Shown here one piece after another: positions 343-53,097 of a stretch of 64,000 nt of DNA; the stretch's first letter is position 1; every line of letters starts with the position of its first letter. The stretch is from Pogonophryne albipinna (Eukaryota > Chordata > Actinopteri > Perciformes > Artedidraconidae): contig CM053249.1 of the NCBI GenBank assembly GCA_028583405.1, forward strand, positions 38,586,111-38,650,110, in the 5' to 3' direction. The translations under genes were made by a program, and so were the position numbers. The notes under the pieces are model-generated. The model saw only the letters and a program-made list of their open reading frames with translations. It searched no databases and was not told where the DNA came from.

Positions 343-3300
343 TCTGCTCAGTCAGTTGGTTCAGGCCACGGTGGATTACCAGTTGTGGCGTGACCGTGGC
401 AGCCTCCGGACCTTTGACCTGGGGGACATCCCCCTGCTGGCCTGGCTGCTGGTATCTCTGTCCCCGCTGCTGGTGGTGGTGGTCAACGAGGTGGTGAAGC
501 TGCACGAGATACGGTATGACATCACACACAGGATGAACACATGATCACAATGACTTGAACTCATGGGTGATTCTTAAGCAACACGTCAGAAAGAAGCAGG
601 GATCAGTGGGGATTATTCTGGATCATTTAGTAGTCAAATCCTTCTTTCATTTTCCTCTGTGTTGTGTGGTACAACATCTACTGCAGATGATGTTCCCGTC
701 TTAACAGGTTGTAAAAGTACTCAGATCTTTTACTCAAGTAAAAGTAGAAGTACCACAGTGTAGGAATACTCTGTTATAAGTAAAGATCCTGCATTCAAAA
801 TGTTAATCAAGTAAAAGTACAAAAAGTATTGGATTTCAAATCTACTTAAAGAACTAAAAGTAAAAGTAGTCGTTGTGCAGATTGGTCCATTTCAGAATAA
901 TATATATGATATGTTTTATAATGATTGATCGTTAAAGTGTTCTCAAAGCTGGTAAAGGTGCAGCTAGTCTGAATGGCTTTGTAGACTGCAGGGTAGCTGG
1001 TAAAGGTGCAGCTAGTCTGAATGGCTTTGTAGACTGCAGGGTAGCTGGTGAAGGTGCAGCTAGTTTGAATGGCTTTGTAGACTGCAGGGTAGCTGGTAAA
1101 GGTGCAGCTAGTCTGAATGACTTTGTAGACTGCAGGGTAGCTGGTGAAGGTGCAGCTAGTCTGAATGGCTTTGTAGACTGCAGGGTAGCTGGTGAAGGTG
1201 CAGCTAGTTTGAATGGCTTTGTAGACTGCAGGGTAGCTGGTAAAGGTGCAGCTAGTCTGAATGGCTTTGTAGACTGCAGGGTAGCTGGTGAAGGAGCAGC
1301 TAGTTTGAATGACTTTGTAGACTGCAGGGTAGCTGGTGAAGGAGCAGCTAGTCTGAATGGCTTTGTAGACTGCAGGGTAGCTGGTGAAGGAGCAGCTAGT
1401 CTGAATGACTTTGTAGACTGCAGGGTAGCTGGTGAAGGTGCAGCTAGTCTGAATGGCTTTGTAGACTGCAGGGTAGCTGGTGAAGGAGCAGCTAGTCTGA
1501 ATGACTTTGTAGACTGCAGGGTAGCTGGTGAAGGAGCAGCTAGTCTGAATGGCTTTGTAGACTGCAGGGTAGCTGGTGAAGGAGCAGCTAGTCTGAATGG
1601 CTTTGTAGACTGCAGGGTAGCTGGTGAAGGAGCAGCTAGTCTGAATGACTTTGTAGACTGCAGGGTAGCTGGTGAAGGAGCAGCTAGTCTGAATGACTTT
1701 GTAGACTGCAGGGTAGCTGGTGAAGGTGCAGCTAGTCTGAATGACTTTGTAGACTGCAGGGTAGCTGGTGAAGGTGCAGCTAGTCTGAATGGCTTTGTAG
1801 ACTGCAGGGTAGCTGGTGAAGGAGCAGCTAGTCTGAATGGCTTTGTAGACTGCAGGGTAGCTGGTGAAGGTGCAGCTAGTCTGAATGACTTTGTAGACTG
1901 CAGGGTAGCTGGTGAAGGTGCAGCTAGTCTGAATGACTTTGTAGACTGCAGGGTAGCTGGTGAAGGTGCAGCTAGTCTGAATGGCTTTGTAGACTGCAGG
2001 GTAGCTGGTGAAGGAGCAGCTAGTCTGAATGGCTTTGTAGACTGCAGGGTAGCTGGTGAAGGTGCAGCTAGTCTGAATGACTTTGTAGACTGCAGGGTAG
2101 CTGGTGAAGGTGCAGCTAGTCTGAATGACTTTGTAGACTGCAGGGTAGCTGGTGAAGGTGCAGCTAGTCTGAATGACTTTGTAGACTGCAGGGTAGCTGG
2201 TGAAGGTGCAGCTAGTCTGAATGGCTTTGTAGACTGCAGGGTAGCTGGTGAAGGTGCAGCTAGTCTGAATGACTTTGTAGACTGCAGGGTAGCTGGTGAA
2301 GGTGCAGCTAGTCTGAATGACTTTGTAGACTGCAGGGTAGCTGGTGAAGGTGCAGCTAGTCTGAATGGCTTTGTAGACTGCAGGGTAGCTTGTGGATTTA
2401 CTCCAGGTGGAACTAAAGTCTGATTCAACACTTGATTAGATTTCACATCATTCATCCAGATCTGTGAAGTAACTAAAGGGATTAAATACATGTAGTGGAG
2501 TAGAAGTACACCATGTACCTCTGAACTGTAGAGGAGTAGAAGTACACCATGTACCTCTGACTGTAGAGGAGTAGAAGTACACCATGTACCTCTGAACTGT
2601 AGTGGAGAAAAAGTACACCATGTACCTCTGAATTGTAGAGGAGTAGAAGTACACCATGTACCTCTGAACTGTAGAGGAGTAGAAGTACACCATGTACCTC
2701 TGACTGTAGAGGAGTAGAAGTACACCATGTACCTCTGAACTGTAGAGGAGTAGAAGTACACCATGTACCTCTGAATTGTAGAGGAGTAGAAGTACACCAT
2801 GTACCTCTGAACTGTAGTGGAGAAAAAGTACACCATGTACCTCTGAACTGTAGTGGAGTAGAAGTACACCATGTACCTCTGAACTGTAGAGGAGTAGAAG
2901 TACACCATGTACCTCTGAACTGTAGTGGAGTAGAAGTACACCATGTACCTCTGAACTGTAGTGAGTAGAAGTACACCATGTACCTCTGAACTGTAGTGGA
3001 GAAAAAGTACACCATGTACCTCTGAATTGTAGAGGAGTAGAAGTACACCATGTACCTCTGAACTGTAGAGGAGTAGAAGTACACCATGTACCTCTGAACT
3101 GTAGAGGAGTAGAAGTACACCATGTACCTCTGAACTGTAGAGGAGTAGAAGTACACCATGTACCTCTGAACTGTAGAGGAGTAGAAGTACACCATGTACC
3201 TCTGAACTGTAGTGGAGAAAAAGTACACCATGTACCTCTGAACTGTAGAGGAGTAGAAGTACAAAGTAACCAAATATTGAAATACTCAAGTAAAGTACAA

Positions 3301-6960: not shown

Positions 6961-7198
6961 AAGCGGCTTTCACACCAGCGCTTTTCCCTTTCTAGCTCCG
7001 AGCTAGAGCTTTTCTGGTTCAGCTCCGGTTTCCCTTTTCTGCTCCCGCTCTGTTCACACCGCCCAGAGCTGCCGCTACTGCGTCATGACGTCACCGTTTA
7101 CATCGTTGATTTGCTCCCCAACGGCGTTACGGCGCTCACAACAACAACGGGGAACTGCATCGGGTCGATGATCGTGTTGCTTTTAATCACACGAAGCC
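6961..7198. mobile_element. GC-rich MITE, left half
   Basis: The end reads GCGGCTTTCACACCAGCGCT, followed by AGCTCCGAGC-type motifs. The inverted partner at 31054-31365 ends GAGCTGAAAACGCGTTGGTG then TGAAAGGGGC. The halves are separated by 23.8 kb and joined by a 14-bp direct repeat (7185-7198 and 31040-31053), as expected for an element split by a later insertion. No clean target duplication of the MITE itself was resolved. Confidence 0.6.
7185..7198 (+). repeat. 14-bp direct repeat, left copy
   Basis: AATCACACGAAGCC occurs here and again at 31040-31053 in the same orientation. It bounds everything inserted into the GC-rich MITE and is read as a target-site duplication. Confidence 0.7.
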
Positions 7199-7218
7199 AG
7201 ATTAAATTAAATAACTGA

Positions 7219-7560
7219 GGTTACCTACTGTAACCCAGCTTCTATGAGTAAATGGCGCAGCCCTCTAAGGCTATCGCTATTGGGTTATCCCTCTGCGCCC
7301 CCGCGCAGCACTGAAACACTTGTAGTCCACGCCCACCCGCCAGGTGGGCCCCACCCTCGGGCTTCCTTCCGGTATAAATAGGAAGGGAGCCCGGCAATCT
7401 GCTCCCATACAATATAACTTTTCTTCAGCTATTCGTAGAGCCAGTGGGGCCCAGCACTTAGAGGGCTGCGCCATTTACTCATAGAAGCTGGGTTACAGTA
7501 GGTAACCCCAGTTCTATTTCCTATATGGCTTCGCCCTCTAAGGCTATCGCTATTGGGTTA
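7219..7560. repeat. DIRS terminal and internal complementary repeats
   Basis: Sequence at 7219-7265 (GTTACCTACTGTAACCCAGC and onward) recurs in inverted form at about 7462-7506, producing a stem-loop-like terminus. It is followed by a second copy of the CCCTCTAAGGCTATCGC end block. This matches the internal complementary region used by DIRS elements to complete replication, which is known for the family and inferred here. Confidence 0.7.
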
Positions 7561-7994
7561 AGGGCGAAGCATGATGTAGTCTGCGCCCCACTGGGTCCGT
7601 CCGGCACTAGAAGCACAAACACACCTGCTCAATAACACCCCCTGCCTGTTGTGCCATGCGTAATGGCGCATTACCGTCCCTGGAACATAGCAAAACATGC
7701 CTATCTTCTCGACGGGGTGAAGGCTGGGAACAATACATACCGGCCGCTGTGAGAAAGTAGAGACGAAGGTCCCACCTTGTCCTGCGATCATAGAGGGGGA
7801 ACAGCCGCTGTCTCTCCGTGTTAGACAGGTAGGAGAGCGCTCAGCTGGATCCCTGACGTCACTCACTCTGACCAGGCACTCCGTACGAAGTGTGTCAGAG
7901 TAAAGGGAACATCCCTCTCATACGAGGGGAAAAGGGCCGCTCTCTGTGTGCCGATAGGCAGGAGAGAGGCGCACCGCTGGGTCCCTGACGTCAC

Positions 7995-10073
7995 TCACTC
8001 CGAAAGGACACCCAGTACAGGGTGTGTGTGTGTCAGAGAGGAATGGGAGACCTCCCTCAAATAAAATTTAATAAATGAACAGGGGGAAGACCAAGATGCA
8101 GCTGTGCAAATATCTTCCACTGACATTCCTCCATGCAACGCCGTGGAGGAGGAAATTCCTCTGGTGGAGTGCGCTTTGATATTCTCCGGGGGCTCCACCC
8201 CCGCGGAGACATATGCCTGCGACACAGCCTCACACAGCCAGTGTGACAGCCGTTGTGCCGACAGAGGTTGCCCGATCGAGCGCTCTCTATAATGCACAAA
8301 CAGGCGCTGAGAACGGCGCCATGCCGCCGTGCGCGTCACATAGCAGGCCAGCGCGCGCACCGGACAGAGGAGATGAGATGTGGCTTCTTCCTCTGATTTA
8401 TGAGGAGGCGGAAAAAACCCGTCCAGGGTGATCACTCTTGACCTAAAAGAGCTTGTGATGACCTTTGGCATAAAGGCTGGGTTAGGACGTAACACAGCCG
8501 AACTGCCATCCCCTTGGATCCGGAGGCATGACGGGGCCACAGAGAGAGCCGATAAATCACTCACCCTTTTCGCCGATGTTAGAGCCAAAAGCAGAACTAC
8601 TTTGGCTGATAACATGTTGAGGGGAACCTGCTCGAAAGGTTCAAATGGGGCTTTGCTTAGTGCTCGTAACACCAAAGCCAAATCCCACTGAGGCGCCAGT
8701 GCCCGTGACACCGGTCTGAGTCTCCGTACCCCTTGCAGAAACCGTTTCATCAGGGGGTGACTGAACAACGTCCCTGCTCCGAAACCCACGTGACAAGATG
8801 ATATGGCAGCCGCATATACCTTCATTGTGCTGAACGCCAAATTCCTGTCCAACAACAGCTGGAGGAATGACAGCACGTGAGGCAGGGGGCACGTGATGGG
8901 GTCCAGGCTTCTTTCTACACACCAACGCTGGAACGCTGCCCACTTGGCTGTGGAGGACGCTCTGGTAGACACGGCCCTGGCTCCCTGAATGGTGCGTACA
9001 ACATCTTGAGAGAGACCCAACCTCTCTAAGTGTTCCCGCTCAGGGGCCATGCCCATAGGGGCTGGCCTATCACTGGGTGACTGTAGATCGCTCCCTCCAC
9101 CTGTGAGAGAGCGTCCCCCCCCCACGGAATCTCCCATGGCCTGCCTGACAGCGTACGCTGTAGGCATGGAAACCAGGAAGCTCCCGTGCGCTCCGGGGCA
9201 ATTAGGATCACTGACAGCCGCTCCTCCTGCACTCGGTCCAGGAACCGAGGAATCAGCGGGACTGGTGGGAAGGCGTACAGCAGTCCCCTGGGCCATGGCC
9301 GATGTGCGAACGCGTCCACCCCCAGGGGAGGGGTGGTCCCGTGCTGACAGGGAGAACCAGAGGGCGCATTGCGCGTTCCCGCGTGCGGCGAACAGATCCA
9401 GCTCCGCCCTCCCGAACCGGCTCCAAACCTGGGCGATCAGCTCGGGATGGAGGCTCCAGTCCCCCTGGCGAGGTCCTCCTCTGGACATGAGGTCTGCCCC
9501 TTTGTTCAGCTCTCCGGGCACATACAGTGCTCTGATGGAGAGCACGTGTGCGCGTGCCCAGATCAACAGCCGTCTGGCTGTGTTCAGGAGCTGCGCTGAG
9601 CGTACACCGCCCTGGCGATTGATGTAGGCTGCCGCGGCTCTGTTGTCTGTGTGAATCAGCACATGCTGTTTCCGCAGCAACGGGGCAAAATGCTGAATTA
9701 CTCTCCGTACGGAGATCAATTCCAACACATTTATGTGGAAAGACATGTGAGCCGGCCACTGTCCTCCCACTGCCTGCGACATGCACGTTCCTCCCCACCC
9801 TGAGAGAGATGCGTCTGTAAACACCGAGATGTGTGACGTAACTCTGCCCAGGGCCACCCCCTCTGACAGGACGTGGGGACTTTTCCAATAGGTTAAGTCT
9901 GAACCCACGGACATAGGGATGACCACCATGCGCCTCTTCTGTCGTATGGGGTCGATGCGTAGGCTGATAACCCACCTCTGGAGTCTCCTCATGTGCAGGA
10001 GACCCAGGGGAATCACCCCGTGATCTGCTGCCATCATGCCGAGCAGCCGCATCACGGAGAGTGACGTCACCAC
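7995..10073 (-). CDS. DIRS RNase H and tyrosine recombinase region
   Basis: An open frame of about 690 codons, read without an obvious native start because it continues pol. RNase H motifs: FTDASLSGWGG, NVLELISV and IHTDNRAAAAYIN supply the D-E-D set. The C-terminal half is a phage-integrase-like tyrosine recombinase: core-binding part around STAKWAAFQRWCVERSLDP, catalytic Arg in SAKRVSDL, HxxR in HSTRG and the Tyr nucleophile in FIKFYLRE. It would catalyse integration of a circular DNA intermediate. This is the best-preserved DIRS region. Upstream frameshifts mean it is probably not expressed from an intact pol. Confidence 0.9.
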   Translation of the reverse strand: MVTSLSVMRLLGMMAADHGVIPLGLLHMRRLQRWVISLRIDPIRQKRRMVVIPMSVGSDLTYWKSPHVLSEGVALGRVTSHISVFTDASLSGWGGTCMSQAVGGQWPAHMSFHINVLELISVRRVIQHFAPLLRKQHVLIHTDNRAAAAYINRQGGVRSAQLLNTARRLLIWARAHVLSIRALYVPGELNKGADLMSRGGPRQGDWSLHPELIAQVWSRFGRAELDLFAARGNAQCALWFSLSARDHPSPGGGRVRTSAMAQGTAVRLPTSPADSSVPGPSAGGAAVSDPNCPGAHGSFLVSMPTAYAVRQAMGDSVGGGRSLTGGGSDLQSPSDRPAPMGMAPEREHLERLGLSQDVVRTIQGARAVSTRASSTAKWAAFQRWCVERSLDPITCPLPHVLSFLQLLLDRNLAFSTMKVYAAAISSCHVGFGAGTLFSHPLMKRFLQGVRRLRPVSRALAPQWDLALVLRALSKAPFEPFEQVPLNMLSAKVVLLLALTSAKRVSDLSALSVAPSCLRIQGDGSSAVLRPNPAFMPKVITSSFRSRVITLDGFFPPPHKSEEEATSHLLCPVRALACYVTRTAAWRRSQRLFVHYRERSIGQPLSAQRLSHWLCEAVSQAYVSAGVEPPENIKAHSTRGISSSTALHGGMSVEDICTAASWSSPCSFIKFYLREVSHSSLTHTHPVLGVLSE

Positions 10074-10168
10074 GCTGCGGGGTGTGATGCGTCAAAGGAG
10101 AGCTGTCAGCTTCTCCACTCTCTGCCGTGAGAGTCGTGCTCTCATGCGGGTTGAGTTCAATTCCACTC

Positions 10169-11477
10169 CTAGCCTAGGAGTCCTAGGTAAACCATACTCT
10201 GGGAGGGAAGAGGACAGCTCTTTTTCCAATTTATTATGAAACCCAGCTTTGACAGATGCGATATGAGTTGTACCGTCTGGAGCGAGCCAGCAGCAGCAGG
10301 TCGTCCAGGTAAAATAATACTCTCATCCCTCCTCTGTGTAGCGGCTGCAGCGCCGTTTCTACACACTTTGAAAAAGTGCGAGGAGCCAGGGAATAGCCGA
10401 ACGGCAGACGGTTGTACTGGTACGATATTCCCTGGAATGAAAACCGCAGGAATTTCCTGTGTTGCGGAATGATGGGTACATGGAAGTATGCATCCTTTAG
10501 GTCTATAGAGGTGAACCAGTCTCCCTGGTGAACACACTCTAGCACCCTTTTTACCGTCAGCATGTGAAAAGGCCTTTTCATTATTGCCTTGTTGAAAACG
10601 GACAGGTCGAGGATGGGTCTCATTCCCCCCGTCTTTTTCGGGATCAGAAAATAGCGGGAGTAATACCCCTGATTTTCTTCCTCCTGGGGAACCCTGGAAA
10701 TAGCCTCTTTCAACAGGAGTTCCCGTAGCTCTCCCTGGAGCGCAAGACATTGTTCTCGGGATGACAGGCGTGTCACCTGTATCCCGTTGAACTGTGGGGG
10801 GGGGGGAGGCGAACTGCAGGGTGTACCCTCTGCTGATCAGCCTGCTCATCCATCTGTCCATCAGACACACGCGCTGCCACTCCGAGAAACACTCTGAGAG
10901 CGGGCGCACATGCTCGAGATGTGTTGTGGTCGCCATGACGACGAGCCATGCCAGAGCCCTCGCCGCCGCTGCCCGTGAGGCAACCCAAGGTGGGCCTAGA
11001 GCGAAAGGGCTGTGAGGAGGCCTCCACACGCTGCATTTCACTCCGCCTCTCATCATGAGGCGCGTACACGCTCAGAGGATGGGTGGAGGTGTGTGCAGTG
11101 ACATCCACATGAGGCGTGACCATGGCGCTCATGGGCTTATTGTGACCGTGTGTAGGTGGCATATCTCGGACAGAGGAATGCCGCGAGGTCTGTGGTTTAA
11201 TAACCGAAAAGTCATAACCACCAGGCCTCTGCAGCGAACCCAGCTGCCTACTAATCAACAGATTGGAGGCAGCTGGTGTAGTTACCGCGCTCTGCAGCTT
11301 ATTAATCGATAGATTAAATAGCGCAGGCTTTTGTAACGAACCCTGCTGGCTATTAACCGATAGGTCATAGGCAGCTGGTTCACCCAGGGTGGGGGATATG
11401 TGACACATATTTGCAACTGATGACTCAGACCACCTGTTGGGAAATAATGTTTTTATTTCTTTCACACTCCCCCCCAA
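10169..11477 (-). pseudogene. DIRS reverse transcriptase, frameshifted
   Basis: The N-terminal pol segment is in one frame (11477-10773), ending near LMDRWMSRLISRGYTLQFA. A run of C residues (G on the + strand, about 10797-10806) shifts the frame into 10776-10234. There the RT core shows FLIPKKTGGMRPILDLSVFN, then SIDLKDAYFHVPI, LPFGYSLAPRTF and the catalytic YLDD. Just after YLDD the frame shifts again, and the homologous continuation (GFIINWKKSCPLPSQSMVYL) is in a third frame. Reverse transcription of the element's own RNA is the family function; this copy is broken. Confidence 0.88.
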
Positions 11478-11481
11478 ACCG

Positions 11482-13047
11482 TCAGGGTCGGCTTTGCTTC
11501 CTCTGCGGCTCTTGTGGAGCAGACGCCGAACGGGAGTACCTCACTCCCTTCTTACCCCCCTTCTCTGGTGGGGGGGCGGAGGCGCGGGACGGTGCCCCAG
11601 CCGCCGCTGACGGACGAGTCTGACGCCTCGGCTGTTGTTGCTGCGAGTGTCTCTCCGTCTGCCGCTGTGGCCGGGTTGGCTGCTGCTGCTGCCGCTGGTG
11701 CCGCTTCTCTTGATGCTTCACCGCTGGCTGGAGCCAGCCGACGTGCTGGCGGATGTCATCCGCTTGCTCCGATGCCGCCTTCATGGTCTCAACCATGGCC
11801 AGGAACTGGGGTCCGAACAGCCCGTCCGAGCTGATCGGAGCGTCCAGCAAAACCTTCCTGGCTGGCTCTGTCACCGCTGCTTGCTGCAACCACAGGTGGC
11901 GCTGGATCTGAGTCATCCAGGCTGTGATCCTTGCTTGGGAGACCGTCACGGCTGCGCACAGCGTGAGTGCCGTGCTGGCCGCCTTGGCGATCTCTTCCGC
12001 CTCCTCTGGTGCCACGGTGGTGGATCGTTCGACCAGCGTCACCACTGAGTTGGTCAGCAAGGCGATGTTATTCGCTGCTGCCGACGCCTGGAACGCACAC
12101 TGGTGTGCCCGGTCAGCCTGGCGGGCGACATACTGGTCCTTGGGGCCGGCCAACGTAGGGCGCCGTCCGGCGACCAAGTTGGCCTGCCTAACCCCGAAGA
12201 ACGCCGTTAAGCTCGGTTCCAGAGCGGGGGTGGTTGGAAACCCTTCCTCTGTGAACCCCTCCACCTTAGTGAAGGGGACAAAGGTGGCCACCGGTGCCCT
12301 CAAGGTCCTCGGGTTCGCCGCTGCCCCTTCCTGCTATCGCCTAATGGCGGGGAAGCGTGGCCAGATCGGGTCACTCCTGCCCGTCTGAACCCGGGAAAAC
12401 ACTCCGGCCATGTCATCCAGAGCCGCCCTCTCCCGCCCTCGGGGAACGGGGAGACCTCTGCATGCTGCTGCCTTACTGATGATCTCCGGCAGCTCCAGCA
12501 TAATGCCACCCAACGCCGGTAGCGCCGTGGCCACGGAGAAGGGGACCGCGTGCTCGGCCGCCACCTCTGACTCTCGCTCCGACCCCGTCTCCCCCATCCG
12601 GGGAAGAGGGGGAAGGGGAGAGCCGCATGGCGAGCCATGGAGGGAGACGGGGTAGGAGTCGTCCGACTCCCGCCCCTCACTCACCTCCAGAAACAGGCTG
12701 CCACCCCTGTTCTGGATGGGCCAGTCGTCCTCCTCACCCGCAGCAGCTAGGGCGTCCGCCCTTCGCTTCCTGTCGGATGCTGGGAGACGAAAACAATGTG
12801 AACATGCGACCTGCTGGCTGAGAGCCGCGTCCGCGTGCTCTGGCCCCAGGCAGGATTCGCATATTGGATGCAAATCGTAGCTCATGATATATCCCGTTTT
12901 GCACGAGGGACACTCGCGGACACTATCATTGCTCATGATTTGCTTTTCTTGTGCTTCAGTTACTGCCGGTTGCTGAAGAAAAGAGGGAGCAGATTGCCGG
13001 GCTCCCTTCCTATTTATACCGGAAGGAGGCCCGAGGGTGGGGCCCAC
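11482..13047 (-). pseudogene. DIRS ORF1 (gag-like), one in-frame stop
   Basis: A single reading frame runs from 13047 to 11482 (about 522 codons), broken only by a TAG near 12334-12336. The N-terminal part has cysteine pairs in a zinc-finger-like arrangement (CPSCKTGY, CESCLG, CSHC at about residues 45-85). The middle is acidic and serine-rich. The C-terminal part is alanine-rich, then Q/R-rich (RHQRQQQQPTRPQRQ), as expected for a nucleic-acid-binding gag tail. Assignment rests on position upstream of the DIRS pol. Confidence 0.75.
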
Positions 13048-13150
13048 CTGGCGGGTGGGCGTGGACTACAAGTGTTTCAGTGCTGCGCGGGGGCGCAGAG
13101 GGATAACCCAATAGCGATAGCCTTAGAGGGCGAAGCCATATACGAAATAG

Positions 13151-13326
13151 AACGACTTCTCCAACCTTATACTTTTCTCCAGAGTGCCGTGGTTCATTGT
13201 TTATTAATGTGTTTCTGCAGCATTTACCGACCGCTGCAGTGTTGGCTGCTCTTCCACGGGAGTTTATTCTCCCGTTAGCTCCCGGTTAGCTCACACTGCA
13301 GCGGCCGCTCTAAAGTATTCACTGTC
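13151..13326. mobile_element. Left remnant of the segment flanked by 14-bp repeats
   Basis: Unique-looking DNA between the DIRS right end and E1. Together with 30662-31039 and the 15-bp ATTAAATTAAATAA-containing stub at 7199-7213, it would form a segment of about 570 bp bounded by the 14-bp direct repeat. The AT-rich stub at one end could be a retroposon tail for a - strand element. No family was recognised. Confidence 0.4.
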
Positions 13327-15865
13327 CAACCCTGTCTCCTAAAAATTACGTTCCCACAGAACTAAACTGCATTCTCAATTACGTTTAGCTAGAAACGTAT
13401 TTTCTCCCACGTTACGTTCGTTATGAACGTATCTCAAATACGTTTATTTTCTACTTATCTTCTAGAAGCATATTTTCTCCCACGTTACATTTCTTATGAA
13501 CGTTTCTTAAATACGTTTATTTTCTACATATCTTTGCCATTTATTGTCTTGCTTATAATAATGATAATAGTCATTTATAAATATCATTTTAGAGCACGCA
13601 TTTGAAATCAGTAGGCGAGGCTGTAATTTCTCCAGCTGTTACTCTCATGAGCGAGGCTGAAAATAATAGTTTTAACAGCCAAAAAGCTGCTGTGTCGTTT
13701 ATTGCACCTCAAACATTAAAACAAATCCAGAGTTACGTGTTTCTGTACTTCCTGTAAGAAGAAAGGACAGTAACAGAAGATCTCTGTGGCTTCAGGCTTG
13801 ATCGCCATTCAAATGACAGCGTTGGTTTCCCCAAAAGTGGGCGGGGCTGTAAAGTGACGTAGATTTTACTCTCATCTATTATTCAAAACCATTCTATTTA
13901 TTCTAACGTAAATTACATGCCAGTGTTTTATGTTTTTATTTTAAATCGTATTTAAATCTTTTTTTCCTTATTTACTCAACAATAACACACAATTATCCTT
14001 GTTTTTATTTATTCGTTTAATTCTATAATCTTGGGCTTTTTAGCCGTAAATAAAGTCACCGGAAACAGACGTAGGCCTATAAGGGACATTTTGAGGATAC
14101 ACACAAACCCACTGAACAGATTACCCAAGATCCTCAGCTTGAAGCTTGTTGATTGGATGTTTAGCCGCAATGCATGTTGGGATATGATGTTAATGCGATA
14201 TGATATCCGAAATAAATAATAATAATACTTTATTCCGAGTGTTCTTGCTTTTCTCTTTGGAGGTCATCACATAACGGCATTGTAATACACGGTTCGGCTG
14301 CATTACATATTACACATCTGCTGTAGTTCTTTATTTATAGAGCCCTGATGAGAAGACTTCTGGACAAACAGGAGAACTGCCGCCAAAACTGAATCTGTGA
14401 CGTGGATCATAAATATATCAACAATTAAACAACACCTTGCATTTCTTTTCACACAATACGTCTCCTTGCCGTATCAATAGTAATTCGGCTGACTTTTATA
14501 TTTGATCCAATTGGTAGATAGGTTATATTTACACCATAACGGTGCACAGCTGATAGAAAAGGACTTGTAGTTTTTAAAGATATTACTGATTTTCTTTGAA
14601 TATAAGAATGTAAAAACTGAGTTGAGAGAATAGTCAGGGGATTTGGGTGATGGGAGACACATCTATGGAATCACAATTTCAATAGCTTACCATTAAATGA
14701 CGGATATGCCTTTCTGTCTGTGATGTTTTACAAATCAGATATTAATGTGTAGTAAAACATGAGAAATAGTATAGCAATATCCTGTAAAAACATGAATAAA
14801 ACTACACAACTTCAGATGTTATACACAAGTGTCCTACACTAATAATACAAAGTTATTATTAGTATGCTGTGTGTACCTTGTGTGCACCGCCTAGTGGTTA
14901 AAGCACGTCATTGAATTATTTTTGTTGAATAATGTTATTTTTGTTGAATAATGTTATTTTTGTTGAATAATGTTATTTGATGAAAGAAATATTAAGAGTA
15001 CATACTTTCATAGGAGGAAAGTAGAAGGTCAATGATAGAAGTATAGAATATAAAAAATCAAGAAGATACTGTAAGTGATCTCTACAATAAAACAGTTTAG
15101 TGCTGGATGTACAAAGATATTAATAGGAGGATGTGCAAAACAGACAATCTAATTAACCTTTATTAACACGTTAAAGAATACTTTAGGTTAAGGTCTTCTT
15201 TCAAATAAGAAAAAAGCTTTGATGTATTGCTTTCCTGCAATGTTAACTATGTTGAAGCACTTATTTTAACTGATATTATATGCATTAATTATACTCTTAT
15301 GTATGTAGATAGTATAAGAAATGTGCAGAATATGACAGTTTAATGGTGGAGGTACACACATATTGATAGATGACTTATAATTAACTATTAGTAGAGAATA
15401 ACGAGTAATTAATATACTTTATAGAGATCTGCAGATAAATGTTTAGTCTTCTCAAGCACCAACTATCAAATATCTCTCCTGATTGTTGGCACTTGACAAT
15501 CACCTTCCCTGAATTTTACTCAGGTGTAACTAAAGTCTGATTTAAGGGTTGTTTATATTTCACATCATTAATCAGAATCTGCAAAGTAACTAAAATAAAT
15601 GTAGTGGAGTAAAAATACCAGGTTAACCTCTGAATTGTAGTGGAGTAGAATATATATTAATGCTGCCCATTATGGATACAAGCGATTTTCACCCATGTAG
15701 TAATTACATGTTTTAAATGTGTACACACCAATGTGTTTCCTATTGCCTAAACCTCCAGGGCTGTACACAGTTTAATACTGTCAACTTCTCATTTTGGGAA
15801 AAACGAAAACGTCTTTTAAAACTACAATTCCCAGTAGATACGTGCCATAGAGAGCATGTTGCGAA

Positions 15866-18800
15866 CATAGACTGTATATATAAATGGACGTAGGGTCCGT
15901 GACGTCACCCATAGGATTCTGCAGAGTTGCCGTGAAGCCCTTAGTAGGCGGAGTCGGCCACTAACGGCTCGACAGTGACGTCAGAGTTCAACTCCCGCCT
16001 GTTCCCGCCTGCTCCAAATAAGGGCAAAGAAATAATAATAATCTAAGTTATTGAGTTTTTAGCATAATACTTCAGAATCTTAAAACCCCTTAACGTTTGT
16101 ATGCAATTGTGCTAAATTCAACACTGGAATCAAGTAAATATTAATATGTTTGCATGACATTAGTTATTTATATTTTGATATCACTTAACTATACGTTTAA
16201 TACATTTAAGTCAAGCTAAGGTACATGTGATGGTAGCTAGTTAGTGCTCTTACCTGTGAGGCCTCCTCCAAACAGCATAATAACCAGACTGTATCATTAC
16301 AACTAAGTACCAGTTCTAGATCCTTGACTTTAGACAAACAATTCAAAAGACAACATGTATTTAAAGACCAATCTTTATTTGAAGGTGCCTCTTAACCTGA
16401 GATATTAGTTATACAGTAATAGTATTGACAATCTAAAAAAACTGAGCAACTCAACAGTCAACTTTATATTTCTTATTGTCTAAAGCATTTATTATTTTCA
16501 TTTTCCCCCTCTCATATTCAGTGTGGACGGATTGAGACAGCGTGGTGTCCAGAGAGCTGCAGAGACTTCAGGGAGAAACCTCCGTGTGATGGACGGATTG
16601 AGACAGCGTGGTGTCCAGAGAGCTGCAGAGACTTCAGGGAGAAACCTCCGTGTGATGGACGGATTGAGACAGCCTGGTGTCCAGAGAGCTGCTGAGACTT
16701 CAGGGAGAAACCTCCGTGTGATGGACGGATTGAGACAGCCTGGTGTCCAGAGAGCTGCAGAGACTTCAGGGAGAAACCTCCGTGTGATGGACAGATTGAG
16801 ACAGCCTGGTGTCCAGAGAGCTGCAGAGACTTCAGGGAGAAACCTCCGTGTGATGGACGGATTGAGACAGCCTGGTGTCCAGAGAGCTGCTGAGACTTCA
16901 GGGAGAAACCTCCGTGTGATGGACGTCCTGTCTGTTGGTGTGGAGAGGACTGAGGGTCTTTCCTCAGCGAGGAGGACCAGGCCTGATGGAGGAGCCCATG
17001 CTGGGCACAGCTGATACCAACTGCACAGGCCTAGTCTGTCACTTTATCTGACTAAATGTGTTTACTTATACATTTAATAGGTTTACACCTTCTGTCCATA
17101 TGTGCTTTTTATTTAAAACATTTGATGAAGTTTTGGTTCACATTTCAATAAATTGTATTTGTATTTGCTCCTTTTGTCCATTATTCTTACTGAAAATGTT
17201 AGATTACACATTCACATCTGACTGAAGATTGGCCCCATTTATTTGTGACGTTGCAAACTCTGCGGTACAAGGCACAAGTGATGTGAAGCTCATAAAGTGA
17301 GGCAAATAGAAATAATCAGCTGATGGAGTGTAGATGTGGAAATAGCTGCATTCGATCAGCTGACTGTGTTTTCACAATAAAAGTAGTTTCTTAGTGAATG
17401 TCCTGTACTGGTCTTAAAATCTCATAACATCAGCTTTTGATGTTCCTCTTGGATGTTCTTCTTGACCCTCAGAGAAGGAGAACATGTCGTGTCTTTCAGG
17501 CATGTCCTTTCTTAACAAAAATCACAGGAAACATAAAACATATTATTGCAGAACAAGTGTGTTATTTATGAAAGCGGTGTGTTTGTGTGTTTCGGGGCTG
17601 TAGATATAATTATTTTGTAATTGTAATGATTTTTTTTTATTTCAACAGTGAGCTACAAAGACGATCAGATTAGGAATGAACAGTATGAAGTTCATCAACA
17701 TTGAAATATATGTTATTATCAAAATAATATTTAACTGTTATCAAAACGTAGTGCAACTGTAGAAGCTTGCTCTGTTGTCTCACTGAAAGAATCACTTTTA
17801 CCACGTTTTTTACAGATAATATTGAGAGATAAATAGTAGCAGTTCTCACTATGTGTTAAATATCTTTGCCTTCAATACATTAAATTAGAAAGCTGACAAA
17901 GTCATAGTGCTTGTTAACATCTAAATGTGACTTTTTGCATGGAAAAAACCCTCAACTTCACTGATGTGTAGGTGATCTAGTATTTAGTATTGTTTAATGG
18001 AATGTATATCAGTGTATTCAAGTCAATACTTCATTCATTTAAACCAATATCTTTCTTGATTCTTTGTACAGTATGAAAAATAGAGTCTTTGTACCTGAGC
18101 TGAAGTTCACTGCTGTGAGGAGTCCAGTTCTGTCTCTCTCTCTCTGGTCCAGCCTGTCTGCATCACCTGGTCACCTTAAACAAACAGATATATATGTAAA
18201 GTACCATGTGTACAAACAATATAACTGATTCTCTTCTGTTGAACATGTTGGATTGTGTATTGTCCGAGTCAGGGTCCTTTTTATTTTACTGTAACTTTGG
18301 AAGTTGTGTTACCAATGCTTACTGTTTATTTGATACCCATTTGGTAATACAATTAATAAAAACAACAAGGTTTGGGTTCGTTCTTCAGGTGACTGTGACG
18401 TTAACGTGTAAGCTCAATAATGCCAACCATATTGTAATATCTAAGTAATCATCTTGAAATATGACATTAATAATTGTAATATACACATCTTATTGTGAGG
18501 TTGATTTCACATACACTACTTCGACGTTAGCTTGTCTACATACTTGAGCATAGCCAATTTAAATGTAACCTTAGCGATGCATACAGTTCCTACCTAGATA
18601 ATAAAATATCTCTCTACGTTACAAGGATGACCTTATTTTATCAACCTCAAACAGAAGCCGTTTGTTCTACAGTATTATCCCACTTAATGTCTATTTCGTT
18701 TTAACCTTTATATATACAGTCTATTATTTTAACTTGGAGGCTACGATTAGCATCGTTAGCACCGATGTAGCTACCACTCGCTACACGCTAACCCAAGCCT

Positions 18801-19377
18801 TAACATTCATTACGTAGCTGATTAAAATCATTAACACATCAATAAAGCACTCGAATTTCACTTACCGCAAAACCGCATTCATGCACCGTCTGTTTTAACC
18901 GCAGAGCGAGTCACAATAGTCCGATATATCAGCATGAACAACAAACAACCACGGCCGGCTTCAAGTTGTGTTCCCTGGATGAGCTGAGCAGGCAGAGTCC
19001 CTGTAGCTTCACGGAGCAGCTAGCAGAGAGACAAGAAGCTAGCAGCAACAGTCACTTGACAGAGCCGTCACTCAATGTGACCACGCCCTAATGTATGCAA
19101 AAACGTTAAGACCTAATATAAATAAAAGGGTCGTGTTAGAAAACAATTCACTCACAGATCCATAATCATGAAGGTGGAATCTAACTATATCGATAATAAA
19201 AATGTATGGAGCCAGGGGTAGAAACATGTTTGTTTCTGCTGTAAAGTTGGGCATTTTAACATGGGGGTCTATGGAAATTGCTCCTTTCTGCAGCCATCGC
19301 CTATCGGCCAATATATGAACTGCAGTGTGTGGCACTTCCGTATTGGCGTCCGGCTGTTCCCCAGAGTTTGCCCCTTG
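15866..19377. mobile_element. 3.5-kb insertion inside E1 (element F)
   Basis: The 8-mer GTTGCGAA flanks the insertion (15858-15865 and 19378-19385). The empty site with a single GTTGCGAA is preserved in E2 at 29984-29991. The left end reads CATAGACTGTATATATAAAT, a common teleost repeat start; the right end reads CAGAGTTTGCCCCTTG. No terminal inverted repeat is apparent and no protein was recognised in the interior, which is AT-rich and contains a 66-bp minisatellite. Confidence 0.8.
16520..16925. repeat. Minisatellite, 66-bp unit, about 6 copies
   Basis: Six copies of a unit containing ATGGACGGATTGAGACAGCC and CAGAGACTTCAGGGAGAAAC. The length is a multiple of 3, which produces a spurious 163-codon open frame. 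Confidence 0.92.
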
Positions 19378-20277
19378 GTTGCGAAACACAATAGCCAGCA
19401 TGTGTAGTTCTCGGGGGGCGTTCGAGTCCAGTTTTGAATAGTCTGCCGTGGTTTCGTTCCATTTCAAAGAGCTTGACGCTCGGCGTAACCTTGGCGCAAT
19501 GCCACTCCAACATCCAATCACAGAGCTTGAAGATTAATCACGGGGTTTGTCAACGGGACTGTAGTCCCAAACGATAGCTGGGGATTATGGGTAGTGTAGT
19601 GTCTTCGGCCATCCTAAACTGAAATGTTTATCGTTTATCATATCACATTAACAACACCACATCTGGCGTCAGAGAGATCTTCTGTTACTGTCCTTTCTTC
19701 TTAGAGGAAGTACAGAAACACGTAACTGGATTTGTTTTAATGTTTGAGGTGCAATAAACGACACAGCAGCTTTTTGGCTGTTAAAACTATTATTTTCTGT
19801 CTCGCTCATGAGAGTAACAGCTGGAGAAATTACAGCCTCGCCTACTGATTTCAAATGCGTGCTCTAAAATGATATTTATAAATGACTATTATCATTATTA
19901 TAAGCAAGACAATAAATGGCAAAGATATGTAGAAAATAAACGTATTTAAGAAACGTTCATAAGAAACGTAACGTGGGAGAAAATATGTTTCTAGAAGATA
20001 TGTAGAAAATAAACGTATTTGAGATACGTTCATAATAAACGTAACGTGGGAGAAAATATGTTTCTAGAAGATATGTAGAAAATAAACGTATTTGAGATAC
20101 GTTCATAATAAACGTAACGTGGGAGAAAATATGTTTCTAGAAGATATGTAGAAAATAAACGTATTTGAGTTACGTTCAAAACGAACGTAACGTGGGAGAA
20201 AATACGTTTCTTGCTAAACTGAGAATGCAGTTTAGTTCTGTGGGAACGTAATTTTTAGGAGACAGGGTTGATCAGTT

Positions 20278-21177
20278 ATACTATTCCAATAATGCAACTT
20301 ATTACTTGAGACGTGTTGTGCACTTTGATATTTGACATGAGTAAAATGTTTCTGATCATTTCTGAAAGCGATATAATTAAGATTTTAAACACATGTTGGA
20401 ATGGAAGACTTGCAGAGGAGTATTTTCTCATCTTGGTATTGCTACTTTTACTTAAGTAAATAATATTGCATCTGCATAGAACAGTTTCACATAATTAGAA
20501 ACAACTGATGTTCCTTCAATACTCCTTTTGTTAATTGTGTCGAAAGCAAATTCTAAAATCCACTTTCATTCAAATCTAAATCTCATTTTGAATCAGTGGT
20601 GCTATCTTTTGTCTAGGTTATCCTTTTTCTTGTTTTGCTTTTATTCCCTGCTTCTTCTTTTTTTAATTGTATCCATACTTGTTGAGCCTTGTTGGACTGA
20701 CCTAACCAGTTTCCTGACCTAAGCCAGAGACTGGACCAGTTTTCCAGCCATGAGGAACATTGAATCATTGCGCGTTATCTTTTCCTGTTGACCCCCTGTC
20801 AACATTTGTGAATACGTCGATTCTTATCATTTTCGCTGGTTATTATTACTAAAACTGCTAATATAAACTTCTCTACATCTTTATGAAACGATTGCGGGTT
20901 TCCCTTCCCGTTTCCAAGCTGCAACAGTATGCCTCTGTCAATGCTGAAGAAGCGAAACTAACAAAAGATAGTTTTGTGAGTTGACGTCTTTATTATTCTC
21001 CTATTCTTCTCGGAAGTTTGCATGCGGTGGCGATGTGACGCTCTTCCTTCAGATTGGTTTCACATGATTAGGAAAAATGTTCAACTCAGCAGATGCGCGG
21101 GTGGGTACAGTTTGTCCAGAGCAGGGTTCATTACGAGAATACTGAGTGCTTGCTGTGCAGCGCTGCAGGGGATCACG
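20278..21177 (+). other. Upstream region of il1r2 on the mobilised segment
   Basis: About 0.9 kb between the right end of E1 and the il1r2 start codon. It must hold any promoter that travelled with the gene. No confident TATA box or transcription start was identified. Confidence 0.4.
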
Positions 21178-26078
<4,901 letters not shown>

Positions 26079-26460
26079 AATTGCAATTGTTTTTGCCTAT
26101 CCATATGTTCTAAAGAAATGGGGGGCAGCATTTCACCTCTACTACTGCTGGGTCCATGCGATCTAGATATACAGTCAAGTTATATATCTAAAAAAATAAG
26201 GGTCAGACCCCCGCTACAGTTGTTGGCATGCTAATTTCAGTATCTAGAAATTCAATACATTCAATCTTTAACATAACTAATCACTGTAACCTCTTCACAT
26301 TCCGTTGATAATGTAAATATCTGTTCTAATGTTTTAAAGGGGAGGGGAGGGGGGCATTTGTGTTTGTTCTTTGCTGGTGAACGCAGCACCAGGCATGAAG
26401 TTTTGTGTTCCTGTAAAAGAATATGGAAGGCTAAGAAATAAAACTTCTGTTTATTTTTTA
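26079..26460 (+). other. il1r2 3' UTR with polyadenylation signal
   Basis: The stop codon is followed by about 360 bp to AATAAA at 26437-26442, a plausible 3' end. From there to 27486 I see only AT-rich, non-coding DNA. Confidence 0.5.
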
Positions 26461-27493
26461 AAGAAAACCCTCTCTTCCCGTATTGTTTTTTCACCTGCAC
26501 CTCACATTGTAACAGTGACGCGTACAGTATATATTTAAGCTAAGTCATACTGCAAGTAAGCTTGCCAACCATATTTAACAGATCATTTATACTTAACGTG
26601 AATTGTTATAATATTTTACAGATTTTCAGGATTCAAACAACTTTTATTTAATCACTTTAACTAATGTTACACACTGATTTTCTCCTCAACATCACTTATT
26701 TTCCTGTAATCCTGGGTAAAATGCAGTGACTTAGTGAAGTAGTGTACGCCCCATTTATCATCTCTCCCAACTACCCACAGGTGATGGGCCCCTGTTTGTT
26801 TGAACACATGGGGAACAGACTTTTTCACAGCAGTCATATTGGCTTGTCATTGTGATAAAAAGAAATGTGTTGTTGATCTTAACCATTTCATTCATCAATA
26901 ATTATAGTATGTATTCATGTGTATTTCCTTCAGTGAAATGTCAGAGTGTTGTGTGGAAAAGGCCTGTTGGGCTATACAGGAAAGATGTAAAATATTATAA
27001 GAGCATCAAATTCAGTGCCTTGTTTTTTTCATTTATTGTTGTATGGGTAGCCCATGCTCTGTGAACTGCTGAAGCACAATAAGTATATTTCAGGTGAATG
27101 GAAACCTTTTGTCTTGTGCCACCTAGTGGGTGCCTTTCAGATGACCTATTTTGCGCTAACAAATGTGCAGACCACATTGCATTTCCTGTGACTTCTTCAC
27201 AACAAAAAACACCCTTGTGTTTTCTCAGTTGCACACTTGAAAATCAAAATAAAGTTTATTTTCATGTTGGATTTCACTTAAAAGGGAGTCGCCTTGGTGT
27301 TTGATGCATACAATAAACATGTTATGGGTCATGTTACAATACAGTTACAAAATATAAAGTGTGCTGTTTCTGCATTCGTACCTGTTGATCATCTCAAAGT
27401 GCTTTTGATATTTTCTTTTGACACCCAACTGTATAAGTTGTAAAATTAGCTCCACCATGACAACATTTAAGTTTACATGCAGATGAATCAGTT

Positions 27494-30400
27494 CAACCCT
27501 GTCTCCTAAAAAGTACGTTCCCACAGAACTAAACTGCATTCTCAATTACGTTTAGCTAGAAACGTATTTTCTCCCACGTTACGTTCGTTATGAACGTATC
27601 TCAAATACGTTTATTTTCTACATATCTTTGCCATTTATTGTCTTGCTTATAATAATGATAATAGTCATTTATAAATATCATTTTAGAGCACGCATTTGAA
27701 ATCAGTAGGCGAGGCTGTAATTTCTCCAGCTGTTACTCTCATGAGCGAGGCAGAAAATAATAGTTTTAACAGCCAAAAAGCTGCTGTGTCGTTTATTGCA
27801 CCTCAAACATTAAAACAAATCCAGAGTTACGTGTTTCTGTACTTCCTGTAAGAAGAAAGGACAGTAACAGAAGATCTCTGTGGCTTCAGGCTTGATCGCC
27901 ATTCAAATGACAGCGTTGGTTTCCCCAAAAGTGGGCGGGGCTGTAAAGTGACGTAGATTTTACTCTCATCTATTATTCAAAACCATTCTATTTATTCTAA
28001 CGTAAATTACATGCCAGTGTTTTATGTTTTTATTTTAAATCGTATTTAAATCTTTTTTTCCTTATTTACTCAACAATAACACACAATTATCCTTGTTTTT
28101 ATTTATTCGTTTAATTCTATAATCTTGGGCTTTTTAGCCGTAAATAAAGTCACCGGAAACAGACGTAGGCCTATAAGGGACATTTTGAGGATACACACAA
28201 ACCCACTGAACAGATTACCCAAGATCCTCAGCTTGAAGCTTGTTGATTGGATGTTTAGCCGCAATGCATGTTGGGATATGATGTTAATGCGATATGATAT
28301 CCGAAAAAATAAATAATAATAATACTTTATTCCGAGTGTTCTTGCTTTTCTCTTTGGAGGTCATCACATAACGGCATTGTAATACACGGTTCGGCTGCAT
28401 TACATATTACAGATCTGCTGTAGTTCTTTATTTATAGAGCCCTGATGAGAAGACTTCTGGACAAACAGGAGAACTGCCGCCAAAACTGAATCTGTGACGT
28501 GGATCATAAATATATCAACAATTAAACAACACCTTGCATTTCTTTTCACACAATACGTCTCCTTGCCGTATCAATACTAATTCGGCTGACTTTTATATTT
28601 GATCTAATTGGTAGATAGGTTACATTTACACCATAAGGGTGCACAGCTGATAGAAAAGGACTTGTAGTTTTTAAAGATATTACTGATTTTCTTTGAATAT
28701 AAGAATGTAAAAACTGAGTTGAGAGAATAGTCAGGGGATTTGGGTGATGGGAGACACATCTATGGAATCACAATTTCAATAGCTTACCATTAAATGACGG
28801 ATATGCCTTTCTGTCTGTGATGTTTTACAAATCAGATATTAATGTGTAGTAAAACATGAGAAATAGTATAGCAATATCCTGTAAAAACATGAATAAAACT
28901 ACACAACTTCAGATGTTATACATAAGTGTCCTACACTAATAATACAAAGTTATTATTAGTATGCTGTGTGTACCTTGTGTGCACCGCCTAGTGGTTAAAG
29001 CACGTCATTGAATTATTTTTGTTGAATAATGTTATTTTTGTTGAATAATGTTATTTTTGTTGAATAATGTTATTTGATGAAAGAAATATTAAGAGTACAT
29101 ACTTTCATAGGAGGAAAGTAGAAGGTCAATGATAGAAGTATAGAATATAAAAAATCAAGAAGATACTGTAAGTGATCTCTACAATAAAACAGTTTAGTGC
29201 TGGATGTACAAAGATATTAATAGGAGGATGTGCAAAACAGACAATCTAATTAACCTTTATTAACACGTTAAAGAATACTTTAGGTTAAGGTCTTCTTTCA
29301 AATAAGAAAAAAGCTTTGATGTATTGCTTTCCTGCAATGTTAACTATGTTGAAGCACTTATTTTAACTGATATTATATGCATTAATTATACTCTTATGTA
29401 TGTAGATAGTATAAGAAATGTGCAGAATATGACAGTTTAATGGTGGAGGTACACACATATTGATAGATGACTTGTAATTAACTATTAGTAGAGAATAACG
29501 AGTAATGAATATACTTTATAGAGATCTGCAGATAAATGTTTAGTCTTCTCGAGCACCAACTATCAAATATCTCTCCTGATTGTTGGCACTTGACAATCAC
29601 CTTCCCTGAATTTTACTCAGGTGTAACTAAAGTCTGATTTAAGGGTTGTTTATATTTCACATCATTAATCAGAATCTGCAAAGTAACTCAAATAAATGTA
29701 GTGGAGTAAAAATACCAGGTTAACCTCTGAATTGTAGTGGAGTAGAATTACAAAGTAACAATGAGCTGTCTGTGGGTATATATTAATGCTGCCCATTATG
29801 GATACAAGCGATTTTCACCCATGTAGTAATGACATGTTTTAAATGTGTACACACCAATGTGTTTCCTATCGCCTAAACCTCCAGGCCTGTACACAGTTTA
29901 ATACTGTCAACTTCTCATTTTGGGATAAACGAAAACGTCTTTTAAAACTACAATTCCCAGTAGATACGTGCCATAGAGAACATGTTGCGAAACACAATAG
30001 CCAGCATGTGTAGTTCTGGGGGGGCGTTCGAGTCCAGTTTTGAATAGTCTGCCGTGGTTTCGTTCCATTTCAAAGAGCTTGACGCTCGGCGTAACCTTGG
30101 CGCAATGCCACTCCAACATCCAATCACAGAGCTTGAAGATTAATCACGGGGTTTGTCAACGGGACTGTAGTCCCAAACGATAGCTGGGGATTATGGGTAG
30201 TGTAGTGTCTTCGGCCATCCTAAACTGAAATGTTTTTCGGATATCATATCGCATTAACAACACCACATCTGGCGTCAGAGAGATCTTCTGTTACTGTCCT
30301 TTCTTCTTAGAGGAAGTACAGAAACACGTAACTGGATTTGTTTTAATGTTTGAGGTGCAATAAACGGCTTTTTGGCTGTTAAAACTATTATTTCCTGCCT

Positions 30401-30654
30401 CGCTCATGAGAGTAACAGCTGGCGAAATTACAGCCTCGCCTACTGATTTCAAATGCGTGCTCTAAAATGATATTTATAAATGACTATTATCATTATTATA
30501 AGCAAGACAATAAATGGCAAAGATATGTAGAAAATAAACGTATTTAAGATACGTTCATAACGAACGTAACGTGGGAGAAAAGACGTTTCTTGCTAAACGT
30601 AATTGAGAATGCAGTTTAGTTCTGTGGGAACGTAATTTTTAGGAGACAGGGTTG
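27494..30654. mobile_element. Long-TIR DNA element E, copy 2
   Basis: It starts CAACCCTGTCTCC and ends GGAGACAGGGTTG, in the same orientation as E1 and nearly identical through the shared interior. It lacks the 3.5-kb F insertion (empty site at 29984-29991) and the extra terminal subrepeats. TIR arms are about 27494-27877 and 30280-30654. Its left flank ATCAGTT matches the right flank of E1, and its right flank CACTGTC matches the left flank of E1. The interior includes a fragment of the AGTAAAAGTA MITE family (about 29620-29750). Confidence 0.85.
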
Positions 30655-30661
30655 CACTGTC

Positions 30662-34886: not shown

Positions 34887-50703
<15,817 letters not shown>

Positions 50704-51407: not shown

Positions 51408-51459
51408 ACGTGATAAAGGAGACCCATATGTTTAAAATAAGAGCATTTTCATCACTGCC

Positions 51460-53085: not shown

Positions 53086-53097
53086 AAACATCTTTAT

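Follow-up and report, generated by a model that had tools for sequence, protein, structure and literature searches.

A hybrid receptor gene and a transposon have moved to another chromosome in Pogonophryne albipinna, most likely as a DNA circle. As the best-fitting explanation, which we regard as probable, a circle carrying the gene and one copy of the transposon (E) recombined into a resident E on contig C8. The resulting cassette lies in the window (the whole stretch of DNA analysed, 64,000 nucleotides) and comprises the following features, all on the plus strand:

13320-13326: CACTGTC, left outer flank (A); in the best model, target duplication of the resident element
13327-20270: E1, copy of the long-TIR transposon considered non-autonomous; left part of the type of element X, right end closest to the donor E
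15866-19377: 3.5-kb insertion nested in E1, between 8-bp repeats GTTGCGAA
20271-20277: ATCAGTT, inner flank (B) at the start of the D arm; the 7-mer found on both sides of the donor E
20278-25600: D arm, from donor copy 3; comprises the upstream region, exons 1-6 and the beginning of exon 7
21178-26078: IL-1R/IL-18R-like hybrid gene lacking a TIR domain, 366 aa
21178-21229, 23926-24181, 24485-24668, 24808-24952: exons 1-4 of the hybrid gene
25032-25094, 25204-25327, 25589-25734, 25948-26078: exons 5-8 of the hybrid gene
25390-25548: (CA)n microsatellite, about 50 bp ahead of the switch point
25600-25604: switch point within exon 7, where copy-3 sequence gives way to copy-2 sequence
25604-27486: U arm (remaining exon 7, decoy exon 8 and 3' region), from donor copy 2
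27487-27493: ATCAGTT, inner flank (B) at the end of the U arm
27494-30654: E2, second transposon copy; left part of the type of X, right end not donor-type
30655-30661: CACTGTC, right outer flank (A)

E1 and E2 belong to one transposon family and have identical orientation, and neither carries a target duplication of its own. Their flanks are exchanged: the 7-mer on the left of E1 recurs on the right of E2 and that on the right of E1 recurs on the left of E2, both matches being direct and of exactly 7 bp. An earlier note on this DNA had described this arrangement, and its coordinates, letters and orientation were all reproduced. Chance was discarded as the source of the match, since both matches would arise jointly with a probability of about 5e-9 given the base composition of the window, and the left 7-mer of one E copy equalled the right 7-mer of another in 0/380 ordered pairs from 20 other copies of the same genome, donor included. 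Target-site preference was rejected because the 20 left flanks showed no strong consensus and CACTGTC and ATCAGTT differ, and a simple inversion because all four flanks are direct.

E is a high-copy family with long TIRs and 7-bp target duplications. In the 20 other copies, the duplication was exact over 7 bp in 16 and over 8 bp in two, had one mismatch in 7 bp in one, and was absent from one. The TIRs are internally repetitive, with 73-bp units, and together with the 7-bp duplications they correspond to what is expected of a P superfamily or Galileo-like element. No transposase domain was found in the six frames of E2 and of the E1 insertion. We consider E a non-autonomous transposon and have not filed it in the P superfamily, as a non-autonomous copy would lack a P-type transposase anyway. 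The 3.5-kb insertion of E1 had no counterpart in the E copies at 20 other loci, the sole match being 165 bp in the flank of one locus.

The earlier note had predicted a locus in which positions 27380-27493 and 20278-20400 of the window surround one E, and such a locus is present on contig C9 of the same genome. There, the donor E (Ed) has ATCAGTT on both sides and is flanked on one side by the sequence of 27229-27493 and on the other by that of 20271 onwards, so that the inner flanks of the C8 cassette derive from a donor insertion at ATCAGTT. IL-1R/IL-18R-like genes form a tandem array there, in which Ed separates copy 2 from copy 3; the junction between copies 1 and 2 represents an empty site with a single ATCAGTT. 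Ed was the sole E within the 70 kb read on C9, a region whose single N run (73 bases) is outside the three array copies. The donor array has been retained on C9, so that the outcome was a duplication. Pfam scans of one strand, covering 30 of the 70 kb around the array, revealed no kinase or CNH domain, but one C-type lectin. The published adjacency of IL1R2 and MAP4K4 in human, chicken and zebrafish (PMC4090809, PMC9643328) had suggested the U arm as a map4k4 3' UTR; this candidate was dropped, since the U arm proved to be the 3' end of copy 2 in the array and the Pfam scans showed neither domain.

Comparison with the array identified the bracketed gene as a hybrid that follows copy 3 up to 25600 and copy 2 from 25604. 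Diagnostic sites between the two copies were of copy-3 type in 44/52 cases up to 25600 and of copy-2 type in 55/55 cases from 25604 (Fisher P 3e-22). The earlier note had placed the junction of a circle probably within 26450-27486; this did not hold, as that stretch follows donor copy 2 with 98.5-100% identity per 200-bp bin and the join is instead the homologous switch in exon 7. The switch involves the two copies that flank Ed and fits the order predicted by a loop-out across Ed. By its sequence, the hybrid links a TIR-bearing receptor's ectodomain with a decoy tail, which is identical to that of copy 2; this finding replaced our initial idea that the event had severed the TIR exons of the gene itself.

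The gene model comprises 366 codons in eight exons, with canonical splice sites and no internal stops, and has a decoy-type layout with an Ig ectodomain, a membrane segment (judged by eye) and no TIR domain; no credible domain was found in the stretch downstream of the gene. The new copy is thus predicted to encode an intact TIR-less hybrid receptor, a putative decoy. The nearest proteins are notothenioid IL-18R1-like (IL-18 receptor 1-like) and IL-1R2-like, and matches to solved structures were IL-1RAcP (4e-15) and IL1R2 (3.5e-10). The name il1r2, given in the earlier note, is therefore only loosely right: it suits a TIR-less decoy-type receptor, but the gene belongs to a tandem cluster and is nearest to IL-18 receptor 1-like proteins. 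That a complete, intron-containing gene had been mobilised was borne out by the donor and the intact model, with the correction that it is a hybrid of two cluster members. The C8 copy differed from the predicted hybrid at 54/6029 noncoding (0.90%) and 8/1101 coding positions; seven of the codon differences are nonsynonymous and one synonymous, which gives no sign of constraint, although the counts are too small to conclude.

Alignment of E1, E2, Ed and 17 other copies revealed a mosaic. Fifteen left-part states are common to E1 and E2 and absent from Ed and the 17 others, and the two also share a 3-bp deletion, a 10-bp deletion and a 19-bp insertion; states exclusive to a pair numbered two for E1 and Ed and none for E2 and Ed. 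Divergence in this part was 16/2217 (0.72%) between E1 and E2 versus 48/2177 between E1 and Ed (P 4e-5). Judged by these states, both left parts come from an element other than Ed, here called X. The two left-part sites exclusive to E1 and Ed run against the circle model. In the right part, Ed was the nearest to E1 among 19 copies (6/426), one state was exclusive to E1 and Ed, and a three-site block was common to both and only 3/17 others, two of which are the nearest to Ed in the left part. E2 was at family distance there (10/417 from E1, 13/418 from Ed), the difference between E1-Ed and E1-E2 having a P of 0.32. A site test of the mosaic gave P 0.17 with unique states only and P 0.035 with the linked block counted as one, and in alignment columns 2589-2621 E2 is like Ed and E1 is unlike it. 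The right end of E1 may thus derive from Ed; chimerism of the bracketing repeats would consist of an E1 that is X on the left and, weakly, nearest to Ed on the right, and an E2 that is X rather than Ed on the left. When only the four TIRs of E1 and E2 were tested for chimerism in the Galileo style, no crosswise columns appeared, and the test was uninformative without the donor.

In the mechanism that we propose, copies 2 and 3 would have recombined homologously across Ed, giving a unit made up of a single E and a single hybrid gene, with copy 3 on its 5' side and copy 2 on its 3' side. This unit would be an extrachromosomal circle of about 10.6 kb, whose E then recombined with X, an E already resident on C8 between two CACTGTC copies, yielding the observed A-E-B-gene-B-E-A structure. 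A plain single crossover predicts an Ed-type left part of E2, but an X-type one is seen, which counts against the circle model and makes an extra conversion necessary; X sequence may have overwritten this part by gene conversion, during integration or later. The divergences of the interior (0.90%, noncoding) and of the left parts of E1 and E2 (0.72%) agree with one event. In a tandem array, the units would follow one another in the D-to-U order anyway, so that this order alone is no proof of a circle.

The earlier note had offered, besides a circle, a tandem duplication followed by movement of the transposon, gene and transposon as one macrotransposon. Both models required a donor E at ATCAGTT, which was found; the circle is favoured, not proven. 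In the second model, unequal crossing-over in the C9 array would have produced a tandem E-hybrid-E, and the outermost ends of its E copies would then have carried the entire unit (about 14 kb, not counting the nested insertion of E1) into CACTGTC on C8. It accounts equally well for both flank pairs and for the copy 3/copy 2 hybrid, since unequal crossover would leave the identical join connecting both sides of Ed; the tandem array exists, E has the long TIRs and 7-bp duplications, and no conversion specific to the left part of E2 is required. We nevertheless consider it rather unlikely. Only one E is present in the 70 kb of C9, and both E1 and E2 should be Ed-type throughout, which they are not against the present-day donor E, so that later conversion of both the left part of Ed and the right part of E2 is needed. 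No close source for either was found among the candidates scored, and the remaining candidates may include a closer one. For the right part of E2 the nearest others reached 97% (39 scored of 2129), and for the left part of Ed (39 scored of 4546) at most 95% across all 2 kb with gaps counted, 96% across about 1.2 kb, and up to 99% only in pieces of 192 bp or less, the gap-free divergence from the nearest aligned copy being 1.42%.

A composite insertion, formed by alternative (sister-chromatid or reversed-ends) transposition and re-replication as for maize Ac/fAc, with the arms fused by recombination between array copies, seems very unlikely to us. Maize cases do have new target duplications on the outside and the flanks of the donor on the inside, with homologous recombination between repeats closing one class, but the insertions described are 13 kb to 1.7 Mb away from their donor, on the same chromosome (PMC4270019), whereas different large contigs are involved here, and E1 and E2 should both be copies of Ed and look otherwise. 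Still less credence is given to an assembly artefact in which reads of the C9 array were joined to the C8 locus through collapsed E copies. In its favour, E is high-copy and the analysis covered the assembled sequence only; against it, differences between the C8 copy and the C9 copies are spread over its full length, the 3.5-kb insertion is private to E1, E1 and E2 can be told apart, and the window and the used part of the array are gap-free. A gene native to the interval between tmem94 and tdrkh, with two E copies inserted around it, has a negligible probability, and no point in support of it was found: two independent insertions cannot give swapped flanks, and IL1R2 adjoins MAP4K4 in the three vertebrates mentioned above. 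Mapping in related fish, proposed in the earlier note, placed IL-1R/IL-18R-like genes and tdrkh on separate contigs, differing in size, in 32/32 species (those in both best-120 lists with both contigs above 10 Mb, matched by eye), and native origin was discarded on these flanks and contigs.

Under the circle explanation, the class of mechanism appears to be already known from circle-mediated duplications, above all lcr16a/SVA, and this variant would be what is new. Germline circle cases in the literature, as described in the sources cited below, mostly rest on permuted order and end-joining scars. In the present case, a single assembly contains the donor, the join, a paralogous site that is empty and both target duplications, so that each step is datable and testable. 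More tentatively, we envisage a homology-driven dispersal cycle in which recombination in tandem immune-gene arrays sheds transposon-bearing circles, dispersed transposon copies serve as landing pads, and hybrid genes arise on new chromosomes in one step, in this case converting a TIR-bearing receptor ectodomain into a decoy. Should this cycle prove general, gene dispersal between chromosomes and gene fusion would have a permanent route wherever a high-copy transposon lies close to a tandem gene array.

The earlier note had called a transposon-bracketed cytokine receptor of this kind new. Duplication by a circle that recombines into a resident transposable element has a close precedent in lcr16a/SVA (PMC9132208); a DNA-transposon case was not found among the matches listed in a non-exhaustive search of the literature on circle-mediated duplication or notothenioid receptor expansion, and sequence words searched as text matched two papers, both duck primer studies. 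Germline gene-carrying circles that reintegrate elsewhere are likewise described for cattle colour-sidedness (Durkin 2012) and human segmental duplications (Chicote 2020, PMC7450558); the latter have end-joining or microhomology scars with homologous recombination ruled out, whereas all joins proposed here are homologous. The Nile tilapia vasa duplication also concerns a fish and an intron-containing gene dispersed by a presumed DNA circle, but in the available text of that source homologous landing in a transposon is not described and a LINE fragment is only suspected, at another vasa copy (PMC3245284). Circle integration through recombination between a BASD repeat and a resident copy has been proposed for the spiny rat Y-to-X transfer; unlike E, this repeat is not described as a transposable element in the passages available (PMC12104558). 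Drosophila Galileo inversions are similar in their long TIRs, 7-bp duplications and exchanged flanks and chimeric copies revealing ectopic recombination, but their copies have opposite orientation and the outcome is an inversion (PMC2775673), in contrast to the insertion observed here with an E without detectable transposase. Maize composite insertions share transposon termini and the arrangement of flanks, and differ in being made during replication by a transposase that uses the ends of two elements, with targets on the same chromosome (PMC4270019). The closest system is the founding event of lcr16a/NPIPB in African apes, where, as proposed here, a circle landed by recombining with a transposable element resident at the site, leaving a cassette between two bracketing elements, with the target duplications of one inside and those of the other outside (Damert 2022, PMC9132208). 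There, the element is an SVA retrotransposon, both bracketing copies are chimeric and the circle closed the NPIP 3' end to PLA2G10 sequence; here, it is a DNA transposon with 7-bp duplications, signs of chimerism are in E1 only, and the closing join would be homologous, within a tandem gene array, and yield a hybrid gene.

The four 7-bp flanks that the earlier note had claimed for E1 (13327-20270) and E2 (27494-30654), the two copies of the long-TIR transposon E that bracket the receptor gene, proved exact and direct, with CACTGTC outside (left of E1, right of E2) and ATCAGTT inside (right of E1, left of E2), and both copies have the same orientation. E1 spans 6944 bp and E2 3161 bp, a difference due chiefly to a 3.5-kb stretch in E1 bounded by 8-bp repeats, in which no clear TIRs were found. 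Because this stretch was absent from the E copies at the 20 other loci compared, we take it to be a later nested insertion; one 165-bp match to it was found in the flank of one of these loci.

Features of the window, with one receptor-related copy elsewhere in the assembly
947-3263 and 45246-53086: several long minisatellite arrays (units of 48, 36, 12, 13 and 45 bp)
about 7192-13153, minus strand: retroelement with a reverse transcriptase match and a weak RNase H match
15866-19377: 3.5-kb insertion in E1, 8-bp repeat GTTGCGAA, internal 66-bp tandem repeat
37520-40318, minus strand: LINE-type open frame of 933 aa with endonuclease and reverse transcriptase domains, between tdrkh exons
58494-59114, minus strand: hAT-type dimerisation-domain match
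C2:28885996-28886786 (G000), a third contig: copy of the receptor 3' region, 82%

The retroelement, which appears DIRS-like, has inverted end repeats (7248-7406 and 12985-13143) and stops about 170 bp before E1. E itself has the termini CAACCCTGTCTCC...GGAGACAGGGTTG, TIRs of several hundred bp partly made of 73-bp units, and no recognisable transposase. The number of 73-bp units differs among E1, E2 and the donor copy L017, and also from one end to the other within a copy. The family is abundant, with 4146 first-look candidates, 40 of which were scored, in the 1.07-Gb assembly, where the window occupies C8:38586111-38650110. In 20 further copies, which include the donor itself, target duplications were exact over 7 bp in 16 and over 8 bp in two, carried a single mismatch in one and were lacking in one, and a left flank equalled the right flank of another copy in none of the 380 ordered pairs. 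Given these counts, the missing duplications and swapped flanks of E1 and E2 are exceptional for the family.

The locus that the earlier note had sought, with the end of the U arm (25604-27486) and the start of the D arm (20278-25600) around one E, is present on contig C9. This donor E (minus strand, about 9.512-9.516 Mb, 3370 bp) is flanked by ATCAGTT at either end; on the left its flank equals window 27229-27493, to the limit of the stretch compared, and on the right the window from 20271 onwards. It is the only E in the surrounding 70 kb, and it interrupts an array of three tandem receptor genes between copy 2 and copy 3. The same junction recurs between copies 1 and 2, where it lacks E and has ATCAGTT once, as the empty site in a paralogue. 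Of the three genes, copy 3 carries exons for a TIR domain; the other two close with a short tail and a stop, and the tail of copy 2 is identical to the last 42 residues of the window gene. Genome-wide, the U arm matched the window, the two junctions in the C9 array (at 99% and 97%) and the C2 copy, perhaps an older dispersal, while the remaining 36 of the 40 scored matches covered its first 70 bases only.

Through 25.5 kb the bracketed 7.2 kb is copy-3-like (96.5-100% per 200-bp bin), also over a part of intron 1 that matches neither copy 1 nor copy 2, and from 25.67 kb it is copy-2-like (98.5-100%), identity to copy 3 falling there to 80-90% and then to no match. Sites diagnostic between the two copies had the copy-3 state in 44 of 52 cases up to 25600 and the copy-2 state in 55/55 from 25604. 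Judged by these comparisons, the window gene (exons 21178-26078) is a hybrid in which the TIR-type copy accounts for most of the ectodomain and the decoy-type copy for the end and tail. The donor E lies between the same two copies, and the assignment of the hybrid's 5' and 3' parts is that predicted by recombination across it. The reading frame is intact, with seven nonsynonymous and one synonymous codon differences from the predicted hybrid and 0.90% noncoding divergence.

The proteins nearest to the window gene are from Antarctic notothenioids (Gymnodraco 92%, Champsocephalus 89%, Dissostichus 87%), and tdrkh likewise indicates a notothenioid. In a tree, the gene fell inside a notothenioid clade mixing TIR and TIR-less predictions (8 rows, support 100/99). 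In the portions available of PMC4090809 and PMC9643328, IL1R2 and MAP4K4 are neighbours in human, chicken and zebrafish. Receptor-like genes and tdrkh lay on different contigs in 32/32 species (those within the best 120 matches for both proteins, contigs >10 Mb, matched by eye), the receptor matches being mostly paralogues rather than strict orthologues and the two proteins perhaps coming from different assemblies in some species. The short TIR-less tail recurs in the notothenioid predictions P0006, P0007, P0009 and P0014, with Eleginops and Cottoperca among the genera concerned; the membrane segment of P0003 resembles theirs, but this prediction reads on. Ectodomain and tail types are differently combined between species.

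As to the route, a circle probably recombined into a resident E, flanked by CACTGTC, on the window's contig. E1 would then join the resident's left part to the donor's right part, and E2 the donor's left to the resident's right. The left parts of E1 and E2 have 15 common states absent from the donor and from 17 other aligned copies, as well as two deletions (3 and 10 bp) and a 19-bp insertion that, among those copies, only these two have; in the right part, the copy nearest to E1 is the donor, and E2 stands at family distance. A circle landing would therefore be correct for three of the four E halves, and would require one conversion of the left part of E2 to resident sequence, for which E1, 14 kb away, would be an obvious source. 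In the right part, E1 and the donor have one state unique to the pair and a three-site block present in three of the 17 other copies, of which two are the donor's nearest in the left part. The divergence test of this link gave P 0.32 and the site test P 0.17 without the block and 0.035 with it counted; the right-part evidence is thin. Against a circle, too, it is E2 rather than E1 that resembles the donor at alignment columns 2589-2621, and two left-part sites are common to E1 and the donor only.

Tandem duplication followed by transposition of E-gene-E as one macrotransposon, which we regard as unlikely, would leave all four halves of donor type. It requires two later conversions from other E copies, and no near-identical source for either was found among the scored copies (39 others each, of thousands of candidates).

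Duplication through DNA circles, the route we favour, is established. The closest case, as far as the accessible part of the source describes it, is lcr16a (PMC9132208), where an SVA-bearing circle was inferred to have inserted into a second SVA, giving the same inside/outside duplication pattern as in the window. Tilapia vasa offers a fish precedent in the part available of PMC3245284, and the human cases described in the accessible text of PMC7450558 carry end-joining or microhomology scars. Compared with the known circle cases, the landing site here would be a DNA transposon, and the product is a seamless hybrid gene out of a tandem array.
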